A stretch of DNA of 64,000 nt from Natrinema sp. SYSU A 869 (lineage in GTDB: Archaea; Halobacteriota; Halobacteria; Halobacteriales; Natrialbaceae). Shown piece by piece: positions 13,380 through 24,246 of the stretch. Position numbers and translations under genes: made by a program. Where the stretch lies: assembly GCF_019879105.1 (NCBI RefSeq), contig NZ_CP082249.1, forward strand, positions 2,914,001 to 2,978,000. The letters are read 5' to 3'. Under the pieces are notes generated by a model. The model had not been told where the DNA came from. It did no database searches and saw nothing but the letters and a program-made list of their open reading frames with translations. The first letter of the stretch is position 1; every line of letters starts with the position of its first letter.

Positions 13380-13808
13380 TCACTCGACATCGTCGTGCGT
13401 GAGCAACGGCCGCGTTCGCTCGCCCGGAGGGGGTTCGTAGGTGACGACCTCGAGGAGATTCCCGTCGGGGTCGAGGAAGTAGAACCCCTCGAACTCGTCC
13501 CAGTCGTACGGACCCTGTTTTGGAAACTGATCGTCAAATTCATCCATCAGCGCCGCGTAGGCCTCGCGATCGGTCTCGAACGCGAGGTGGGCCTTGTCGA
13601 GGGGATGCTCGAGCCCTCGCTCATCCCAGTTCTCGGCGCGACCCGTTTCGGCCAGCGTCACGACTGTTTCGCCGGCCCGGAACATCGCGTGCTCGCCCTG
13701 AAAATCCGCCGGCGGTCTGACGAGTTCGAGGTCGAGGGCGTCGCGATAGAACTCGTAGCAGGGCTCGAGCGCGTCGACGTCGACGTTGATGTGATCGACG
13801 GCATCCAT
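13380..13808 (-). CDS. VOC superfamily protein (glyoxalase/bleomycin-resistance fold)
   Basis: This 142-residue protein has the paired beta-alpha-beta-beta-beta modules of the vicinal oxygen chelate superfamily. His in MDAVDHINVDVDALEPCYEFY near residue 6 and Glu in FYFLDPDGNLLEVVTYEPP near residue 120 are the likely metal ligands. The frame runs upstream to 14072, but that part overlaps the AOR gene and is arginine-rich; the ATG at 13808 fits the fold. It is divergent from the AOR gene with a 140-base gap. Substrate unknown; isomerase, dioxygenase or lactoylglutathione-lyase-like roles are all possible. Confidence 0.85.
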   Translation of the reverse strand: MDAVDHINVDVDALEPCYEFYRDALDLELVRPPADFQGEHAMFRAGETVVTLAETGRAENWDERGLEHPLDKAHLAFETDREAYAALMDEFDDQFPKQGPYDWDEFEGFYFLDPDGNLLEVVTYEPPPGERTRPLLTHDDVE

Positions 13809-13948: not shown

Positions 13949-15634
13949 ATGCTGACTGGACGAGGTCCACTGCTCTCGATCGACGTCGGCACGCGGTCCG
14001 TCGAGACGGACCGGATCGACGGCGTCCTCTCGAGGTACGTCGGCGGTCGAGGCGTCGGAACGAAACTCGCATACGACCGTCTGCCGTTCAACGTCGATCC
14101 GCTGGGCCCGGACAACGCGCTCCTCTTCAGCGCCGGTCCGTTGCAGACGGCACGGACGAGCTTCACCGGCCGGCTGAACTGTACAGCCGTCTCGCCGCTG
14201 TCCAACGGGCTCGTCTCGTCGAACGCCGGCGGGTTCCTCTCCCAGCCGTTCGCAAACACCGGCTACGGAGCGCTCGAGGTGACTGGCGAGAGCGATCAGC
14301 TGCTCGCGGTTCACGTGACCGACAAGGGCGTCTCGTTCGAGGACGTACCGGAACTGGCCGGCGCGACCGTCCCTGAGGTGACGGCTCACATCGCGGATCG
14401 CCGCGGCTTCGACGACGACGAGGCGGCCTCGCACGTCGCCTGCGTCGGTCCGGCCGGCGAGAACGAGGTGCGGTTCGCCGCGATCGTGACCTCGGGCGGC
14501 CGGGTCTTCGGCCGCGGCGGACTGGGCGCGGTGATGGGATCGAAGAACATCAAGTGCCTCACGTTTGACGGCGACGCTGCTCCCTCGATCGACGTGCCCG
14601 ACGTCGCCGGGGAGATTCACGCTGCGGCCGCCGAGAGCGACCACGTGATGAAACGGCAGGGAACCGCGGGGTTGACCGGGTTCGCCAACGAGATCGAAGC
14701 GCTGCCGACCAGGTACTTCAGCGAGCTCTCGTTCGAGGGGATCGACGGCATTAGCGGCGAGCGCGTCGCCGAGAAGAAGTACAAGCGGGGTACCTGCTCG
14801 AGTTGTGCATTCGCCTGCAAACTGCCCACTAGGGACGACGAATCGGGCCTCGAGACCGAAGGGCCGGAGTTCGAGACGGTGATGGCGTTCGGGTCGAACG
14901 TCGGCGTCGACGATATCGTCGACGTGATGGGCGCGAACGAGCGGTGTGACGCGCTCGGCCTCGATACGATCGAGTGCGGGGCGGCCGTCGCGGCCTACCT
15001 CGCAAGCGAGGACGCCTTCGGCGACGCCGATCTCGTCCACGACCTCGTCGAGAAGATCGCCTCTCGCGAGGGCGTTGGCGACCTGCTCGCCGAGGGGGTC
15101 GCCCGGTGTCACGACGACCTCGGTGTCCCCGACTGGTCGATGAAGGGTGTGGCGTTCCCGGCCCACGACGGGCGGCGGCTCAACGGGCAGGGACTGGCGT
15201 ACGCCACCTCCAATCGCGGTGCGGACCACCTCTACGGCAGCATGTACGTCTACGAGTATCCGATGGTCGATCAGGAGAGGGCCCTCGAGCCGGCGGGACT
15301 CGAGGGGAAGGTCGACCACCTCGTTCGGACCGAGAACAAGAAGGCGGTCCTCGACAGCGCGATCCTCTGCAAATTCTCCCGGACGACGGTCGAGAGCGGG
15401 CAACTCCCCGCGCTGCTCGCGACGACGGACGAGGCCCTCCAGCGACTTGGCGAGCGGATCGTGACCCTCGAGCGCGACTTCAACGCTCGGCGCGGCTTCG
15501 ACCGCGACGACGACGACGATCTGCCGTACGACCTCGAGGGCCTCGAGTCGGCGCTCGATACCTATTACCGCCGTCGGGGCTGGAACCCGGACGGCACCGT
15601 GCCGCCGGATCGGCTCGCCGAACTCGAGCCGTAA
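13949..15634 (+). CDS. Aldehyde:ferredoxin oxidoreductase family protein (tungsten enzyme)
   Basis: This 561-residue protein is a member of the AOR family, which oxidises aldehydes to acids with a tungsten-bispterin centre and one [4Fe-4S] cluster, passing electrons to ferredoxin. The N-terminal domain contains YVGGRGVGTKLAYDRLP, the pterin-proximal segment. The middle has GRGGLGAVMGSKNIKCL, conserved in AORs. Cluster cysteines are in GTCSSCAFACK near residue 292, with the fourth in SAILCKFS near residue 473. Length is slightly below the ~600 typical of hyperthermophilic enzymes. The physiological aldehyde is unknown; cupin and substrate-binding-like genes lie next to it. Confidence 0.92.
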   Translation: MLTGRGPLLSIDVGTRSVETDRIDGVLSRYVGGRGVGTKLAYDRLPFNVDPLGPDNALLFSAGPLQTARTSFTGRLNCTAVSPLSNGLVSSNAGGFLSQPFANTGYGALEVTGESDQLLAVHVTDKGVSFEDVPELAGATVPEVTAHIADRRGFDDDEAASHVACVGPAGENEVRFAAIVTSGGRVFGRGGLGAVMGSKNIKCLTFDGDAAPSIDVPDVAGEIHAAAAESDHVMKRQGTAGLTGFANEIEALPTRYFSELSFEGIDGISGERVAEKKYKRGTCSSCAFACKLPTRDDESGLETEGPEFETVMAFGSNVGVDDIVDVMGANERCDALGLDTIECGAAVAAYLASEDAFGDADLVHDLVEKIASREGVGDLLAEGVARCHDDLGVPDWSMKGVAFPAHDGRRLNGQGLAYATSNRGADHLYGSMYVYEYPMVDQERALEPAGLEGKVDHLVRTENKKAVLDSAILCKFSRTTVESGQLPALLATTDEALQRLGERIVTLERDFNARRGFDRDDDDDLPYDLEGLESALDTYYRRRGWNPDGTVPPDRLAELEP

Positions 15635-15672: not shown

Positions 15673-16034
15673 TCAGCCCTGTTCGGTCTTGGAGGGTGTC
15701 CGTCGCCAGTCGGGCTCCTCGCGGGGCGGTGCGAGTACCCCGATCCCGACCGCGTCCTCGCTACTCCGATTTTCCGCGCCGTGGCACTCGTTGCTCCGGA
15801 ACATGTACGCGTCGCCGGCCGCGAGCGCGTACTCCTCGCCCTCGACGATTGCGGTGAGTTCCCCTCGAGGACGAACCCGATCTGCTCGTTCGCGTGCGTG
15901 TGGGACGGTAGTGTCGCCCCCGATTCGATCCGCCAGTAGACCATACCGGCCCGCTCTCCTGTCTGAAGGTCCGCGAGGTACACCCCGTCGGCGACTTCCT
16001 CGAACGCCGCGCGGGTCGTCGATAGTCGTTCCAT
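15673..16034 (-). pseudogene. Cupin-domain protein, frameshifted
   Basis: This is a single small cupin of ~120 residues. The first half (MERLSTTRAAFEEVADGVYL, then SGATLPSHTHANEQIGFVLEG with the HxHxxxQ metal motif) is in one frame. The rest (ELTAIVEGEEYALAAGDAYMFRSNECHGAEN, cupin motif 2) is in another. The break is at the C-run 15861-15864; one added base gives VLEGELTAIVEGEEY, exactly the expected fold. A one-base sequencing deletion is likely. It is divergent from the three binding-protein-like genes and may be a small-molecule-responsive or oxygenase-type cupin of the same cluster. Confidence 0.8.
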
Positions 16035-16068: not shown

Positions 16069-16089
16069 AAACGTATCATGAAAACGTTT
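16069..16089. promoter_or_regulatory. Inverted repeat AAACGT-N9-ACGTTT in divergent promoter
   Basis: A 6-base inverted repeat sits in the 83-base gap between the cupin gene and the first binding-protein-like gene. It is in the AT-rich part where both promoters must lie, so it may be the operator of a regulator controlling both directions. The evidence is sequence symmetry and position only. Confidence 0.35.
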
Positions 16090-16117
16090 TAAGCCCCTTT
16101 CTGGTGTGGGGTGTCCC

Positions 16118-17011
16118 ATGTTAGCGGACCGATCGATCCGGCTGTTCCACCTCCCGTTCTCGTTCATGCTGCCACAGAAGGTAGCGAGCGAGCGAGGCTA
16201 CTTCCGCGAGGAAGGGCTCGCGGTCGACCTGGTCGAGCGAGACAGGCGCGACGTCGAGGTCAAGTACATCCCCGCGGCGGAGACGCTGACGGGCGAGTAC
16301 GACGTGGACCTCTACCCCATCTGCAAGTGGGAGAGCATCCGCCGGACGTGGACTATGGGCGACGGCCGAATCGTCGCGAACGGCACCTTCGCGAGCCTCC
16401 CGTACACGGTGTTCACACGTCCCGAGTCGGACGTCGAGACGCCGACCGACCTCGCGGACGTTCCGGTCGGCGTCAACCGGCGGACGGGACAGGAGTATAC
16501 CGCACGCAAGGCGCTCGAGGAACACATCCCCGCCGACGAGGTCGACCTCGTCGGCTGCGGAATGCCGACCGACCGGCTGCAGGCGCTCTACGAGGGCCGG
16601 GTCGACGCCGTGACGCTCATCGATCCCCACAGCACGCTCGCCGATCACCTCGGCTTCCGGCGGCTGCTGGAGTACGACAACCACATGGGGATCGTCGGCG
16701 GCGACGCGATCGATCGCGACCTGCTCGAGGCGTTCCTGCGGGCCTACGGCCGCGCTGTCGAGGATATCAACGCCGATCCCGATGCCTTCCGCGGGACGTA
16801 TCTGGAGATGCTCGAGGCTGACGCCGCGGTCGCGCCTGACTTGTTCGACGACGTCGACGTGGACGCCGTCCGCGAGGAGATCACCGTGCCGCAGTACGAA
16901 GTCCCGGAGCCCGTCGACCGCGAGGAACTCGACGAGCACCTCGCCTGGATGCAGGATCGCGGGTTGATCGACGAGAGCGCATCGATCGACGATATCGTCG
17001 CGCCGCTGTGA
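16118..17011 (+). CDS. Leaderless substrate-binding-like protein (periplasmic-binding-protein type II fold), first of three
   Basis: This 297-residue protein has the type II periplasmic-binding fold: FMLPQKVASERGYFREEGLAVDLVE at residues ~15-40, ADVPVGVNRRTGQEYTARKALEEH near residue 115, and LQALYEGRVDAVTLIDPHS near residue 160. It has no signal peptide or lipobox, unlike exported solute receptors, so it probably stays in the cytoplasm. No permease or ATPase gene is nearby. Proteins of this fold include enzymes (THI5-type pyrimidine synthases, 4,5-dihydroxyphthalate decarboxylase). I chose the ATG at 16118 over the GTG at 16106. Confidence 0.8.
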   Translation: MLADRSIRLFHLPFSFMLPQKVASERGYFREEGLAVDLVERDRRDVEVKYIPAAETLTGEYDVDLYPICKWESIRRTWTMGDGRIVANGTFASLPYTVFTRPESDVETPTDLADVPVGVNRRTGQEYTARKALEEHIPADEVDLVGCGMPTDRLQALYEGRVDAVTLIDPHSTLADHLGFRRLLEYDNHMGIVGGDAIDRDLLEAFLRAYGRAVEDINADPDAFRGTYLEMLEADAAVAPDLFDDVDVDAVREEITVPQYEVPEPVDREELDEHLAWMQDRGLIDESASIDDIVAPL

Positions 17012-17049
17012 CCGCCTCTCGAGACCGCCAAAAATACCACAACTCAACT

Positions 17050-18060
17050 ATGACTGACATCGACATCAGTTCCCAGCAGGCCGCAATCGACGAGTTTCAG
17101 GGCGATCCCAGCGACCGGCCCGTTTTACGGGCGCGATTCGAGCATAACGGCAGCCCGCGGTACATGCTCTATACAATCAAGCGCTTTGGCTACGACCACG
17201 ACTACGACTTTCATCTCGACCTGCAACTCGTCTCCGACGAGCTAGACGAGGGCCGCGAGACAGTCGAGGCGAAACTCCAGGAGGGTGACGCTGACCTGAT
17301 CGATATCGACTACATCTCGACGGCCCGCGAGCGCGCCGCGGGCGCGCCGATCGTTGCCTTCCACCCCTATGGGCAGACCGTCGGCGGGCTGGTCGCGCCA
17401 ACCGACTCGCCGATCGAGGGGCTCGCGGACTTGTCGGGCCACCGCATCGGCGTCGTCAGACGGCTCGACAAGAACTGGATCCTCGTCCGGGCGGCCTGCC
17501 GGGAGTTCCACGGCTTCGATCCGGACGAGACGGCGACGCCGGTCGAAGCCGGGTCGAAGGTCGAACTCACCCGCCTGCTCGAGGACGGTGAGGTCGACGC
17601 CATCCTCCAGTTCTGGCAGATCGTTCCGGAGATCGTCGAGACCGGACCCTACCGCGAGGTACTACCGATGTCGCGGCTGGTCGACCGACTCGCCGACACC
17701 GACGGCGATCGCCCGATCCCCGTCTCGACGTTCTTGACGGGCGAGGCGTATCTGGCCGACCGACCCGATGCTATCCGCGGATTCAAGGGTGCCTTTCGGG
17801 ACGCCGTCGAGCGACTACAACGGGACGACGAACTCTGGGACGAGATCGGCGAGCAGCTCATGTACGAGGACGACCCCGAAGTCGTCCACGCCGTGCGCGA
17901 CCGGTGGCGAGAGATGGTCGTCCCCGACTGGGACGAGACCACCGTAGCGGGTATGGAACGGCTGTTCGAACACCTCAGAGCCGTCGCCGGCGCGGAGGCG
18001 CTCGGCATCGACGAACTCCCGGCTGGACTGTTCCGCACGGACCTCGAGGTGGAAGCATGA
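17050..18060 (+). CDS. Leaderless substrate-binding-like protein, second of three
   Basis: This 336-residue protein has the same type II binding fold: RYMLYTIKRFGYDHDYDFHLDLQLV, VEAKLQEGDADLIDIDYISTARER, then IEGLADLSGHRIGVVRRLDKNWILVRAACREF (the hinge-proximal lobe 2 signature) and VELTRLLEDGEVDAILQFWQ. It lacks any leader, starting MTDIDISSQQAAIDEFQ at ATG 17050; an in-frame upstream start at 17008 is less likely. Its last four bases ATGA contain the start of the third gene, so they are translated together. Function is unknown; see the tandem-cluster finding. Confidence 0.8.
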   Translation: MTDIDISSQQAAIDEFQGDPSDRPVLRARFEHNGSPRYMLYTIKRFGYDHDYDFHLDLQLVSDELDEGRETVEAKLQEGDADLIDIDYISTARERAAGAPIVAFHPYGQTVGGLVAPTDSPIEGLADLSGHRIGVVRRLDKNWILVRAACREFHGFDPDETATPVEAGSKVELTRLLEDGEVDAILQFWQIVPEIVETGPYREVLPMSRLVDRLADTDGDRPIPVSTFLTGEAYLADRPDAIRGFKGAFRDAVERLQRDDELWDEIGEQLMYEDDPEVVHAVRDRWREMVVPDWDETTVAGMERLFEHLRAVAGAEALGIDELPAGLFRTDLEVEA

Positions 18061-19040
18061 CCGCGACCGAGCGGATCTCGTTCCAACTCAACTGGGAGCC
18101 CAACGGCTTCCAGTCGCCGTACTTCCTCGCCCGCGAAGAGGGGTTCTACACGGAGGAGGGCCTCGAGATCGAGTTCGTCGAGGGCCACGGCTCGCCGTAC
18201 GCGGCCGAACGCGCCGCCCGTGGCGACGCCGATATCGCGCTTGCCGGTGCAAGCGCCGTGCTGGCGGTACAGAGCGAGGGGTTCGAGCCGCTCGCGGTCG
18301 CCGCGGTAACCCAGAAGACGCCGGCGGCCGTCTACACGTTGCGGGATGTCTTCGGCGAGCCCCTCTCCGAGCCTGAGCAGCTTGCAGGCCGAACCGTCGC
18401 GCCCTCCGCGACGAAGACGCGGATCCTGACCGCCCAGTTGCTCGAGAACGCGGGCATCCGTGACAAGGTCGACCTCCTTGAGGTCGATCCGCACACGCAC
18501 CACCGCGTCCAGCACAAGGTGATCGACGGGACGGTCGACGCGGCGGTCGGCGTGGTCACCAACGGAATCGAGATCGGCCGGGAACACGACCGGACGCCCG
18601 ACGAGCTCCCGATCGGCGAGTATCTCGATATCTACGGGATGACGCTCGTCACCGGTCCCGAGTTCGCGGACGAGCGGCCGGAGGCGATTCGGTCGTTCCT
18701 CCGCGCGACTGCCCGCGGCTGGGCCGCCGCGACGCGCGATCCAGAACGAGCTATCGACGTGCTCGTCGACCGCAACGCCACGCTCGAGCGCAACCGTGAG
18801 ATCGAGCGGCTGAAGTTCAAAACCGCCGCCCACCGACTGCAGTTCACGCCGTACGTCCGAGATCACGGGTGGGGCGCGCAGGATCCGGCCCGCTGGCAGC
18901 GACTCGGCGAGACGCTCTCCGAGACGGCGCTGCTTGAGGGCGAGATCGATCCGGACGCGGTGTGGACCGAGACGTTCCGCCCCGACGGTGAGCCGATCGT
19001 CGACGACTACGCCGACCGGGTCCGACCGACGGCGGAGTGA
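18057..19040 (+). CDS. NMT1/THI5-like ABC-type substrate-binding protein, leaderless, third of three
   Basis: This 327-residue protein is the clearest NMT1/THI5-like member: ISFQLNWEPNGFQSPYFLAREEGFYTEEGLEIEFVEG at the N-terminus, then ERAARGDADIALAGASAVLAVQSEGFEPLAVAAV and LAGRTVAPSATKTRILTAQLLENAG. It begins at the ATG overlapping the previous stop, directly with the first fold strand and no signal peptide. Relatives are annotated as thiamine-precursor or sulfonate/nitrate receptors, but with no leader, ATPase or permease here a transport role is doubtful. An enzymatic or cytoplasmic sensing role is an inference. Confidence 0.82.
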   Translation: MTATERISFQLNWEPNGFQSPYFLAREEGFYTEEGLEIEFVEGHGSPYAAERAARGDADIALAGASAVLAVQSEGFEPLAVAAVTQKTPAAVYTLRDVFGEPLSEPEQLAGRTVAPSATKTRILTAQLLENAGIRDKVDLLEVDPHTHHRVQHKVIDGTVDAAVGVVTNGIEIGREHDRTPDELPIGEYLDIYGMTLVTGPEFADERPEAIRSFLRATARGWAAATRDPERAIDVLVDRNATLERNREIERLKFKTAAHRLQFTPYVRDHGWGAQDPARWQRLGETLSETALLEGEIDPDAVWTETFRPDGEPIVDDYADRVRPTAE

Positions 19041-21243: not shown

Positions 21244-21375
21244 TTATCTGTTACCGTTACCTCGGTTTCTGTTACCGCGATTTCTGTCACCACGATCTCT
21301 GTTACCGCGGTTTCCATTACTGCGTCCTCTGCGACCGCGACCGCTGTTACCGCGGTCTCTGTCGCCTCGATTTCC
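21244..21375 (-). repeat. Degenerate Asn-Arg-Gly-coding repeat at GH31 3' end
   Basis: The last ~43 codons of the GH31 gene consist of short repeats coding RGN, RGD and NR units, seen on the + strand as recurring ctgttaccgcg-like segments. They give a strongly basic tail, unlike the acidic rest of the protein. Confidence 0.8.
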
Positions 21376-24246
21376 GTTGAAGAACAGCTTTACCGGGTTG
21401 TCCTCGTCGGCGGGGACGTGTATGAGGACGGCATCGGCCGTTTCGCTATAGGTGAACGTTTCGGGCGTGTCCTCGACCGTTTCTGCGTCGCTGACTGCCT
21501 CGTACCTTCTGGAGGCTGCTTGGACCTTCCGCGGTGCTTCCGACCGGTCGAGTTTCAACAGATACGACGAAATCTGCGAGTCCGCGTAGTTTTGGACGAC
21601 CGTCTCGCGTTCGAAGGTGACCACGCCGCCGGGAGTGGCTGAGACAGTAAAGTCGGTCACGTTGTACGCTCCGTCTTGGTAGGATCGACTCTCGCCGTCG
21701 TCCTCGTAGAAGGAGTACGACGTTTCCTCGTCCACGTACGTGTCGAGGACGAGCATCGTCAGCGACTGCTCACCGGTATACTGCTGGACCTCCCGCATCG
21801 GGATGATGGTGTCGTTCCGAACGAAGACCGGGAGGTGATCGAGCGGGGCATCGACCGTGAGCGTCTGCCCGCCGTCGTACTCCTTGCCAGTCCAGTAGTC
21901 GATCCACTGCTCCCCCTCGGGTAGGTAGACCTCGCGGGAGGTCGCGCCTTCCTCGAGCACCGGTGCGACCATCATGTCGTCGCCGAACATGAACTGGTCG
22001 GCAATATCGTGGGTTTGCTCGTCGTCTTGGAAGTGGAACACCAGCGGCTGCTGGACGGGTTTTCCGGTCTCGGTGGCGTCCCGGAACTCGTTGTAGAGGT
22101 ACGGGAGCAGCCGATAGCGCAGTCGAAGGAACTTCTTGCTAATCGCTTCGACCTCGTCACCGAACGTCCAGGGATGTTGGTTCCGTGGCTCTCCGTCGTC
22201 GACCTTGTCGTGGCTGTCCGCGTGGTTCCGGCAGTAGGGGACGAACGCTCCGAGTTCCATCCACCGGGCGAACAGTTCCGGATCGGGTCGACCGACGAAG
22301 CCGCCGATGTCGTGGCCGACGAACGCCAATCCCGATAGCCCTAGGTTCAGGTGCATCGGGATTGACTTTTGCAGGTGCTCCCACGAGCTCACGTTGTCAC
22401 CAGTCCAGAGCGCCGCGTACCGCTGTCCCCCCGCGTAGAGGTTCCGGTTCAACAGGAACGGTCGCTTATCGGGCTTATAGACATCGTAGGCTTGGTTGGC
22501 TGCTCTGGCCATGTCGAAGCCGTACATGTTGTGATACTCCTCGTGGAGCATCGTGTCTTCGCCCGTCCCGTGGATGTTGTCGACCGGCATCGTCCAGTCG
22601 TACTTCTCGTTCTCCTGGAACACCGCCGGCTCGGCCATATCGTTTTTGATCCCATCGATACCGACGTCGAATAGTGCGTCGTGTTGCCCGGCCCACCACG
22701 AACGGACGTCCGAACGAGAGAAGTCGGGCCAGACCGTCTCAGGCGGCCAGACCTCGCCGACGAAAGTATCGCCATTCGCGTCTTTCACCCAGTAGTCGTT
22801 TTCCGTCCCCTCGAGATAGACGTCGTAGGGTGTGCCGTCGCCGGATGGGTTATCGTCGGCTGGGCCATCATCGGCTGGTCCGTCGTCAGACGGGCCCTCA
22901 TAGGGTGTGCTATCGCCGGCTGTGTCGTCGTCGGGACCATTGTCAAACGTGCTGTCACCGGACGTGCCGTCGTCAGACGTACCGTCCCCGGACGTACTGT
23001 CGTCGGATGGACCGTCGTAGGGTGTGCCATCGATGGCTGTGCCGTCGTCAGACGTGCCGCCGTTGGACTGGTCGTCAGTGGACGGACCGCCGTCGGAGGG
23101 GTCGTTGTCGTCGGACGTGCTGTCGTAGGACTCCACAGCCGCGACGCCGGGATCGTTGACGGCGACCGTTCTGATCCCCGGGATAGACTCGACTTGCCGG
23201 AGCGTCTCGAGGTAGTCGTCGTCCCAAGTGAACACGCGAAACTCGTTCATGTAGTCGATGTCGAAGTGCATCGCGTCTAGGGGAATCCCCTTTTCGCGGT
23301 AGGTTTCGGCGGTCTCGACGATCTCGTTCGGGGTGTATTGCCACCTGCTCTGGTGGTATCCCAGTCCCCACTTCGGCGGGAGTTCCATCGTCCCGGTCAG
23401 CTCCGTATACCGATTGAGGACCTGCTCGATCTCGGGGCCGTACGCGAAATAGTAGGTCAACTGGCCGCCGTCAGCGAGGAAGTAGTAGTAGTCGTCCGAC
23501 TCGGTCGCCATCTCGAACACGGAGTGATATGGGTCGTCGAAGAAGATCCCGTAGGCACCGACGTCTTTCAGGCCGACGAAGAACGGAATCGACGTATAGA
23601 CGTAGTCGCTGTCCGAGTCGTATGCGTACTGGTCCGTGTTCCACTGCTCGAGTTTCTCACCCCGTTTGTTGAATTCTTGACCGGGCTGTTCACCGAACCC
23701 GTAGAAGGCCTCGTTCTCGTCGGTCTTCTTGTACGCGTAGGGTTTGTCGTCCTCGTAGCCCGGCGACCCCTTCTCTAAGTAGTCTTCGTTGACGACGTTT
23801 CCGTCTTCGTCGAGGAACTTGACGCCGAAGCGTCCGTTATTGATCTCGACGGTGATCGTCTCCGTCTCGAGAGCGATCCGGTCTTCGTTCTCGTCGACAC
23901 TGAAACTCGGCGTCTCCCATTCCGCTCTTCCCGTTGCAATACCGCGGGACTCGTACTCCTCCTCACCGGGTTCGACGATCGAGACCCGCGCCATGTCGTC
24001 GGCGAACAGGCGGACGTATCCCTCGTACTCGCCGAGGTTGATTTTCACCCCATCCTCGAGGACATCGTAATCCCGAACGGATAACGTCTGTAAGTTGTCA
24101 TCGTCGAGTTCCGGTTCGTAATGGATTTTCGAGTCATAATGGTCGGCCCGTGCAGTCGAAGATGCGAGTGCACCGCCTGCCAGCAGCGCGGCCGATGCTT
24201 GCAAGAGCGTACGTCGGGTTGTGAGCCGTGGTGACCTATTAGCCAT
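21244..24246 (-). CDS. Secreted glycoside hydrolase family 31 enzyme (alpha-glucosidase/xylosidase-like)
   Basis: This 1000-residue protein has a Tat signal (RRTLLQASAALLAGGALAS, residues 11-29). The N-terminal beta-sandwich (about 40-280) is followed by a (beta/alpha)8 barrel with WGLGYHQSRWQYT, the nucleophile Asp536 in IKNDMAEP and the general acid Asp617 in WTGDNVSSW. C-terminal beta domains follow. It should hydrolyse alpha-linked oligosaccharides outside the cell. Two oddities: residues ~374-475, inserted in the barrel between VNDPGVAAVES and YDVYLEGTENDYW, are a pentapeptide repeat rich in Asp, Gly, Ser, Thr and Pro; and residues ~958-1000 form a basic tail of Asn-Arg-Gly repeats. Substrate specificity cannot be told. 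Confidence 0.95.
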   Translation of the reverse strand: MANRSPRLTTRRTLLQASAALLAGGALASSTARADHYDSKIHYEPELDDDNLQTLSVRDYDVLEDGVKINLGEYEGYVRLFADDMARVSIVEPGEEEYESRGIATGRAEWETPSFSVDENEDRIALETETITVEINNGRFGVKFLDEDGNVVNEDYLEKGSPGYEDDKPYAYKKTDENEAFYGFGEQPGQEFNKRGEKLEQWNTDQYAYDSDSDYVYTSIPFFVGLKDVGAYGIFFDDPYHSVFEMATESDDYYYFLADGGQLTYYFAYGPEIEQVLNRYTELTGTMELPPKWGLGYHQSRWQYTPNEIVETAETYREKGIPLDAMHFDIDYMNEFRVFTWDDDYLETLRQVESIPGIRTVAVNDPGVAAVESYDSTSDDNDPSDGGPSTDDQSNGGTSDDGTAIDGTPYDGPSDDSTSGDGTSDDGTSGDSTFDNGPDDDTAGDSTPYEGPSDDGPADDGPADDNPSGDGTPYDVYLEGTENDYWVKDANGDTFVGEVWPPETVWPDFSRSDVRSWWAGQHDALFDVGIDGIKNDMAEPAVFQENEKYDWTMPVDNIHGTGEDTMLHEEYHNMYGFDMARAANQAYDVYKPDKRPFLLNRNLYAGGQRYAALWTGDNVSSWEHLQKSIPMHLNLGLSGLAFVGHDIGGFVGRPDPELFARWMELGAFVPYCRNHADSHDKVDDGEPRNQHPWTFGDEVEAISKKFLRLRYRLLPYLYNEFRDATETGKPVQQPLVFHFQDDEQTHDIADQFMFGDDMMVAPVLEEGATSREVYLPEGEQWIDYWTGKEYDGGQTLTVDAPLDHLPVFVRNDTIIPMREVQQYTGEQSLTMLVLDTYVDEETSYSFYEDDGESRSYQDGAYNVTDFTVSATPGGVVTFERETVVQNYADSQISSYLLKLDRSEAPRKVQAASRRYEAVSDAETVEDTPETFTYSETADAVLIHVPADEDNPVKLFFNGNRGDRDRGNSGRGRRGRSNGNRGNRDRGDRNRGNRNRGNGNR
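22822..23127 (-). repeat. 15-bp tandem repeat coding a pentapeptide array inside GH31
   Basis: About twenty degenerate 15-base units encode pentapeptides of consensus D-G-(T/P)-(S/A/Y)-(D/G), for example DGTSD, DGTSG, GPSDD and GPADD. They keep the GH31 frame open and lie within the catalytic barrel coding region, corresponding to residues ~374-475. Confidence 0.85.
23893..23931. repeat. 39-bp direct repeat, copy inside GH31
   Basis: This stretch of the GH31 gene is repeated exactly at 24435-24473, upstream of the same gene and in the same orientation. The sequences flanking the two copies are unrelated. Confidence 0.9.

Follow-up and report, generated by a model that had tools for sequence, protein, structure and literature searches.

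Here we examine three adjacent genes encoding proteins of substrate-binding-protein (SBP) fold in a 64,000-nucleotide stretch of the genome of Natrinema sp. SYSU A 869 (contig NZ_CP082249.1, positions 2,914,001 to 2,978,000; hereafter, the window), and show that the conserved gene cassette to which they belong is firmly linked to quinoproteins. All three are encoded on the forward strand: SBP1 (16118-17011; 297 residues), a leaderless NMT1-fold protein characterized by translation, Pfam, and AlphaFold/Foldseek; SBP2 (17050-18060; 336 residues), a leaderless homologue of PqqT characterized by translation, Pfam, and sequence and structure matches in the PDB; and SBP3 (18057-19040; 327 residues), a leaderless NMT1/THI5-like protein characterized by translation, Pfam, and PDB comparison. 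SBP2 and SBP3 overlap by four bases (ATGA at 18057-18060). The Pfam family NMT1 is matched by SBP1, SBP2, and SBP3 with 47, 39, and 112 bits, respectively (cut-off 20.5), and neither a Sec leader, a Tat leader, nor a lipobox is visible in the three sequences. The existence of three different leaderless binding-fold genes of these lengths, as reported in a preliminary description of the window, thus agrees with the translations, the Pfam matches, and the conservation of the starts outlined below.

The order SBP1-SBP2-SBP3, with all three genes leaderless, is the same in 45 other haloarchaeal loci, where the co-occurrence that the preliminary description had proposed to look for is seen. Together with the window these make up 46 loci, some of which are overlapping copies of one place. 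Across this set, sequence conservation of all three proteins begins at the called start codons, and the start of SBP3 is located at the end of SBP2. A TATA/BRE-like promoter box, GAAAACGTTTTAAG (16080-16093, forward strand), is kept 5' of SBP1 and is likely an archaeal B recognition element (BRE)/TATA element; its 3' end lies approximately 24-28 nucleotides before the SBP1 ATG in most loci, which agrees with a leaderless transcript beginning at the SBP1 start. Scans for sigma-70 promoters and terminators are not informative in an archaeon.

In public records the three proteins are annotated as ATP-binding cassette (ABC) transporter substrate-binding proteins, and true ABC genes do lie near the cassette in some relatives; it might therefore be supposed that SBP1-3 are ordinary ABC binding proteins whose starts were called wrongly or whose permeases have been lost. 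The preliminary description had noted the lack of a transporter partner, and this holds in the window, where no ABC ATPase or permease gene was found near the cassette, but not in several relatives, where the cassette is adjoined by genes for an NMT1-type importer (a Tat-lipoprotein SBP, two permeases, and an ATPase) and for a winged-helix/NMT1 fusion regulator. The SBP of this importer is, however, a separate lipoprotein with its own Tat leader and lipobox, distinct from the trio. Given also that the leaderless starts are kept in 46 loci, that SBP3 begins inside SBP2, and that the promoter box sits so close to the SBP1 ATG, we consider it scarcely credible that the trio are ordinary transport components. 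Nor do direct orthologues routinely carry leaders and neighbouring permease genes, the arrangement that the preliminary description took as the sign of ordinary transport.

The distribution of the cassette was surveyed in 391 Halobacteria genomes, using an SBP1 orthologue (E < 1e-140) as its marker and E <= 1e-20 for the quinoprotein. The cassette is present in 54/391 genomes and the quinoprotein in 70/391. A quinoprotein was found in 53 of the 54 cassette genomes compared with 17 of the 337 others (p 3e-49, with thresholds that were set after score gaps had been seen and genomes that are not independent), and, at the level of genera, in 15/16 with the cassette compared with 5/70 without (p 1e-11). 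Within the window's genus, all 13 genomes having the cassette encode a quinoprotein, as opposed to one of the nine lacking it, that one being a fragment. The two are frequently close neighbours as well, with 28 of 57 cassette copies lying within 20 kb of a quinoprotein gene where 0.9 would be expected by chance. Nine cassette genomes are without the most typical linked enzyme (gene cluster c9, described below); eight of these carry another PQQ subfamily, compared with 3/323 other genomes. That different subfamilies accompany one cassette favours a shared cofactor, pyrroloquinoline quinone (PQQ) or similar, over a single pathway enzyme common to them. We regard the quinoprotein link as firm, and the cassette very probably belongs to quinoprotein biology; because it is almost confined to quinoprotein genomes, the trio probably handles a PQQ-type cofactor inside the cell.

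The c9 genes found near cassettes encode a quinoprotein of the PQQ alcohol dehydrogenase family (Pfam PQQ, E 8e-55) whose best PDB match is PedH (6ZCV). The motifs CCD..NRG, GGEYG, GNPGP, and HDxWDYD are kept, and the DYD of the last corresponds to the D-x-D arrangement in which the extra Asp is taken as a lanthanide signature (PMC11996626; PMC7300363). No export signal was found in the haloarchaeal quinoproteins, whereas their bacterial counterparts have one. In the genome that contains the window, the linked quinoprotein gene is located at C2:241949-243658. A further protein of approximately 305 residues (cluster c6; L032:17666-18583 and 13 other loci) is encoded mostly directly beside the leaderless quinoprotein gene; it has no Pfam or NCBIfam match and is possibly a partner or electron acceptor.

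The closest relationship to a characterized protein is that of SBP2 to PqqT, the PQQ-binding protein of Methylorubrum extorquens, for which the structure 9B1V holds PQQ and Gd3+ (PMC12828617; PMC12124388). SBP2 is a PqqT homologue that lacks a leader: PqqT is its sole strong sequence match in the PDB (phmmer E 3e-26; next 0.19; identity 26-28%), and the SBP2 model (predicted local distance difference test score, pLDDT, 85.5) superimposes on PqqT (9b1u/9b1v/9ooz) with a Z score of 35, a root-mean-square deviation of 2.1 A over 295 residues, and a TM score of 0.90. PqqT entries rank 1-3 for SBP2 in both Foldseek and VIA, and the next fold, SsuA, reaches Z 25. Residue K142 of PqqT, a PQQ-site residue altered in the K142D lanthanide design (PMC12828617), is in entry numbering the Lys of an LDKNW motif and aligns to K141 of SBP2, which is invariant in the SBP2 alignment. 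Analogy with PqqT, of which nanomolar PQQ binding is a hallmark, would make PQQ the ligand of SBP2. Four bacterial relatives of SBP2 that were inspected, from Tateyamaria, Azospirillum, Sinorhizobium, and Qingshengfaniella (approximately 32% identical), all have a leader, ABC genes, and a PQQ dehydrogenase gene alongside.

The SBP1 model (pLDDT 82) finds ThiY, THI5, and SsuA as top Foldseek matches, with PqqT lower, and SBP3 is similar in sequence to the THI5/ThiY group (E ~1e-13) and has the same fold. Relative to THI5, ThiY, and the thiamin-binding SBPs (4H65, 3IX1, 4NMY), therefore, SBP3 is alike in sequence and fold and SBP1 in fold. The analogy to THI5 that was suggested in the preliminary description does not carry over to SBP3 as chemistry: residues K62 and H66 of THI5 (4h65) have no Lys or His counterparts in it, and the CCCFC motif is missing, so THI5-type chemistry was rejected. 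SBP3 also shares 36-42% identity with the lipoprotein of the importer encoded near quinoprotein genes. SBP1-like proteins were met in two other settings. One is a second, distant, leaderless single-gene family in other haloarchaea (L087:7992-8909; Halobacteria matches at E 1e-31 to 1e-42), which had no tie to the trio at the single locus inspected. The other is a lone gene on a Mesorhizobium plasmid (L085:9956-11746), followed by a HAD hydrolase gene, which recalls the HAD neighbour in the window, and by an XDH-family gene 4.5 kb further on.

Beyond the trio, the conserved unit consists of a divergent cupin gene followed by SBP1, SBP2, and SBP3, together with a VOC protein. The tie to the cupin gene proposed in the preliminary description is thereby upheld. 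The cupin gene of the window (15673-16034, reverse strand) is frameshifted at approximately 15861-15866, which is either a sequencing error or recent decay; the gene is intact in the paralogue and in all relatives checked, including the closest (L003), and its metal-site residues H45, H47, E50, and H85 (A5 numbering) are invariant in relatives. The VOC (glyoxalase-fold) gene (13380-13808, reverse strand), part of the cassette in most loci, lies directly 3' of the trio or beside the cupin gene depending on the locus, and its product has a conserved metal triad (H6, H74, E120). A second copy of the cassette, 65-68% identical, is carried by the 881-kb replicon C2 of the same genome. The tie to the AOR-family tungsten/molybdenum oxidoreductase gene (13949-15634, forward strand) holds in part: it adjoins the cassette here and in six or more additional genera, though not in all, and since AOR homologues occur in 272/391 genomes it was rejected as an obligatory partner. 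In two genomes of one genus the cassette-adjacent AOR genes (G270:C22:33775-35409 and G293:C1:137153-138793) have one in-frame TAG each. The HAD phosphatase, likewise put forward in the preliminary description, is a neighbour only within the window's genus, as are the Lrp regulator and hemA, and all three were rejected as functional partners. Elsewhere in the window (21244-24246, reverse strand) a GH31-like glycosidase with a Tat-like leader is interrupted midway by a long, repetitive, Asp/Ser/Gly/Thr-rich insertion.

A gene for the importer lipoprotein was found in 47 genomes, 43 of which have it no more than 15 kb from a quinoprotein gene, including genomes without the cassette; importer and/or cassette are present in 69 of the 70 quinoprotein genomes. 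Searches of 13 quinoprotein genomes revealed neither canonical PqqC nor true PqqE, whereas the Sinorhizobium plasmid used as a control gave a positive match. PqqE-like radical-SAM matches (E 1e-17 to 1e-30) fell under the cut-off and appeared in all control genomes too, and were not counted as PqqE. With PqqC and PqqE absent and the quinoproteins leaderless, PQQ or a relative would therefore be taken up. We propose that the trio is a cytoplasmic PQQ-handling module whose members act as carriers or as insertion chaperones for quinoprotein dehydrogenases of the same compartment, a proposal to which we assign about an even chance. Accordingly worded as a sequence of steps, PQQ or a close relative, possibly as a lanthanide complex, would be taken up, in many species via the NMT1-type ABC importer; once in the cytoplasm, it would bind to the PqqT-like SBP2 and to the presumed partners SBP1 and SBP3; and its delivery to the apo-dehydrogenases, or insertion into them, would follow. 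In this scheme the three proteins would act together, and the cupin and VOC proteins may act on the cofactor or on a by-product.

Winged-helix/NMT1 fusions of approximately 430 residues (L044:2248-3549, L046:14904-16181, L053:14009-15259, L086:16052-17350) are encoded near cassettes and quinoprotein genes and are likely ligand-sensing regulators. The trio itself could be regarded in the same way, as sensors of PQQ or of an alcohol-derived ligand that regulate quinoprotein expression; given that a Pfam scan revealed no DNA-binding domain in SBP1-3, and that three separate sensors would be unusual, this is very improbable.

A number of observations weigh against a PQQ-handling role for the trio. 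The genome G153 has the cassette and yields no quinoprotein match, and the proposal does not account for the roles of SBP1, SBP3, the cupin, and the VOC protein. Two likely pocket segments are changed in SBP2 relative to PqqT (GTVxWEL to GSPRYxLY, and GAPPL to GSKVEL), such that its ligand may be modified or not identical to that of PqqT. The quinoprotein scores 371.9 bits against the NCBIfam model TIGR03075 (PQQ alcohol dehydrogenase), below the cut-off of 480, and cofactor-free relatives of the family exist; PQQ use is therefore deduced from the residues conserved. A leaderless SBP2 relative (49% identical) on a Methylomirabilota contig (L082:2235-9395) is encoded in a cluster of catabolic appearance, alongside a creatininase, two LLM monooxygenases, a dihydroxyphthalate-decarboxylase-like SBP, a flavin adenine dinucleotide (FAD) enzyme, and an aldehyde dehydrogenase (ALDH), with no PQQ genes within 17 kb. 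Finally, the cassette is missing from 16 genomes that encode both a quinoprotein and the importer, and 25 cassette genomes offer no better match to the importer lipoprotein than the leaderless SBP3, with no close importer detectable, which indicates that the uptake step is not uniform.

The last of these figures, along with the missing PqqC and PqqE and the use of the SBP fold by the biosynthetic enzymes THI5 and MqnA/MqnD, could be taken as a sign of a PqqABCDE-independent route by which the cassette synthesizes, trims, or repairs a PQQ-like quinone, the SBP-fold proteins, VOC, and cupin being its enzymes. We regard this as quite unlikely, as the cassette has no conserved radical-SAM or peptide-precursor gene, the 16 genomes just mentioned manage without it, and other PQQ importers could exist. 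A broader idea, that haloarchaea run PQQ/lanthanide-type quinoproteins in the cytoplasm and that the trio, cupin, and VOC together make, remodel, or load the quinone cofactor independently of PqqABCDE, is also unlikely.

The Methylomirabilota cluster bears on a different alternative, in which the trio or part of it are SBP-fold enzymes of a pathway that breaks down an alcohol or aromatic acid after import, other steps being performed by the quinoprotein, AOR/ALDH, VOC dioxygenase, and cupin. Alcohol and aldehyde oxidizers (quinoprotein, AOR, ALDH, and an XDH-family enzyme) are indeed among the neighbours, the metal-site residues of the VOC and cupin proteins are conserved, and the SBP fold includes the enzymes MqnA/MqnD, DszB, and dihydroxyphthalate decarboxylase. 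Structurally, however, SBP2 is far nearer to PqqT (Z 35) than to MqnD or DszB (Z <=21), and its likeness to dihydroxyphthalate decarboxylase, an analogy drawn in the preliminary description and here compared for SBP2, is far weaker than that to PqqT (Z 15.8). Moreover, one cassette goes with different quinoprotein subfamilies, and none of the neighbouring oxidoreductases is present at every locus. A catabolic pathway thus has a modest chance of being the correct explanation. With respect to the undescribed enzyme pathway envisaged in the preliminary description, the evidence points instead to PQQ-quinoprotein biology, and an enzymatic role may yet apply to one or more subunits.

PQQ enzymes have been studied mainly as periplasmic proteins of Gram-negative bacteria, which either synthesize PQQ or bring it in through the outer membrane. 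For haloarchaea, no paper on the use of PQQ or lanthanides was found in the open-access literature searched. If the proposed PQQ-handling role is true, it would provide a gene set (importer, regulator, cytoplasmic carriers, and leaderless quinoprotein) for an archaeal, cytoplasmic, and probably lanthanide-type quinoprotein system, and a class of proteins now annotated as ABC components, the leaderless 'transporter binding proteins', would become testable as cofactor chaperones.

The haloarchaeal quinoprotein shares the CC pair, GGE, GNP, and D-x-D with PedH, a lanthanide-dependent quinoprotein ethanol dehydrogenase, and differs from it in having no export signal. SBP2 has in common with PqqT the fold, the Lys of LDKNW, an aligned Trp (189/162), and the association with PQQ dehydrogenases; unlike PqqT, which is periplasmic with an export signal and has ABC permease and ATPase genes beside its own, it is without a leader in 46 loci, has no such genes beside it in the window, and is always accompanied by SBP1 and SBP3. 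XoxJ and MxaJ are binding-protein-fold proteins that aid PQQ insertion into the dehydrogenase (PMC12997753). They and PedG, maturation factors of PQQ methanol/ethanol dehydrogenases with a periplasmic-binding-protein fold, are periplasmic, whereas SBP1-3 are leaderless NMT1-family proteins, and the likeness proposed is one of role. By these analogies the trio would be the cytoplasmic counterpart of both the bacterial periplasmic PqqT, in binding and uptake, and XoxJ/MxaJ, as insertion chaperones.

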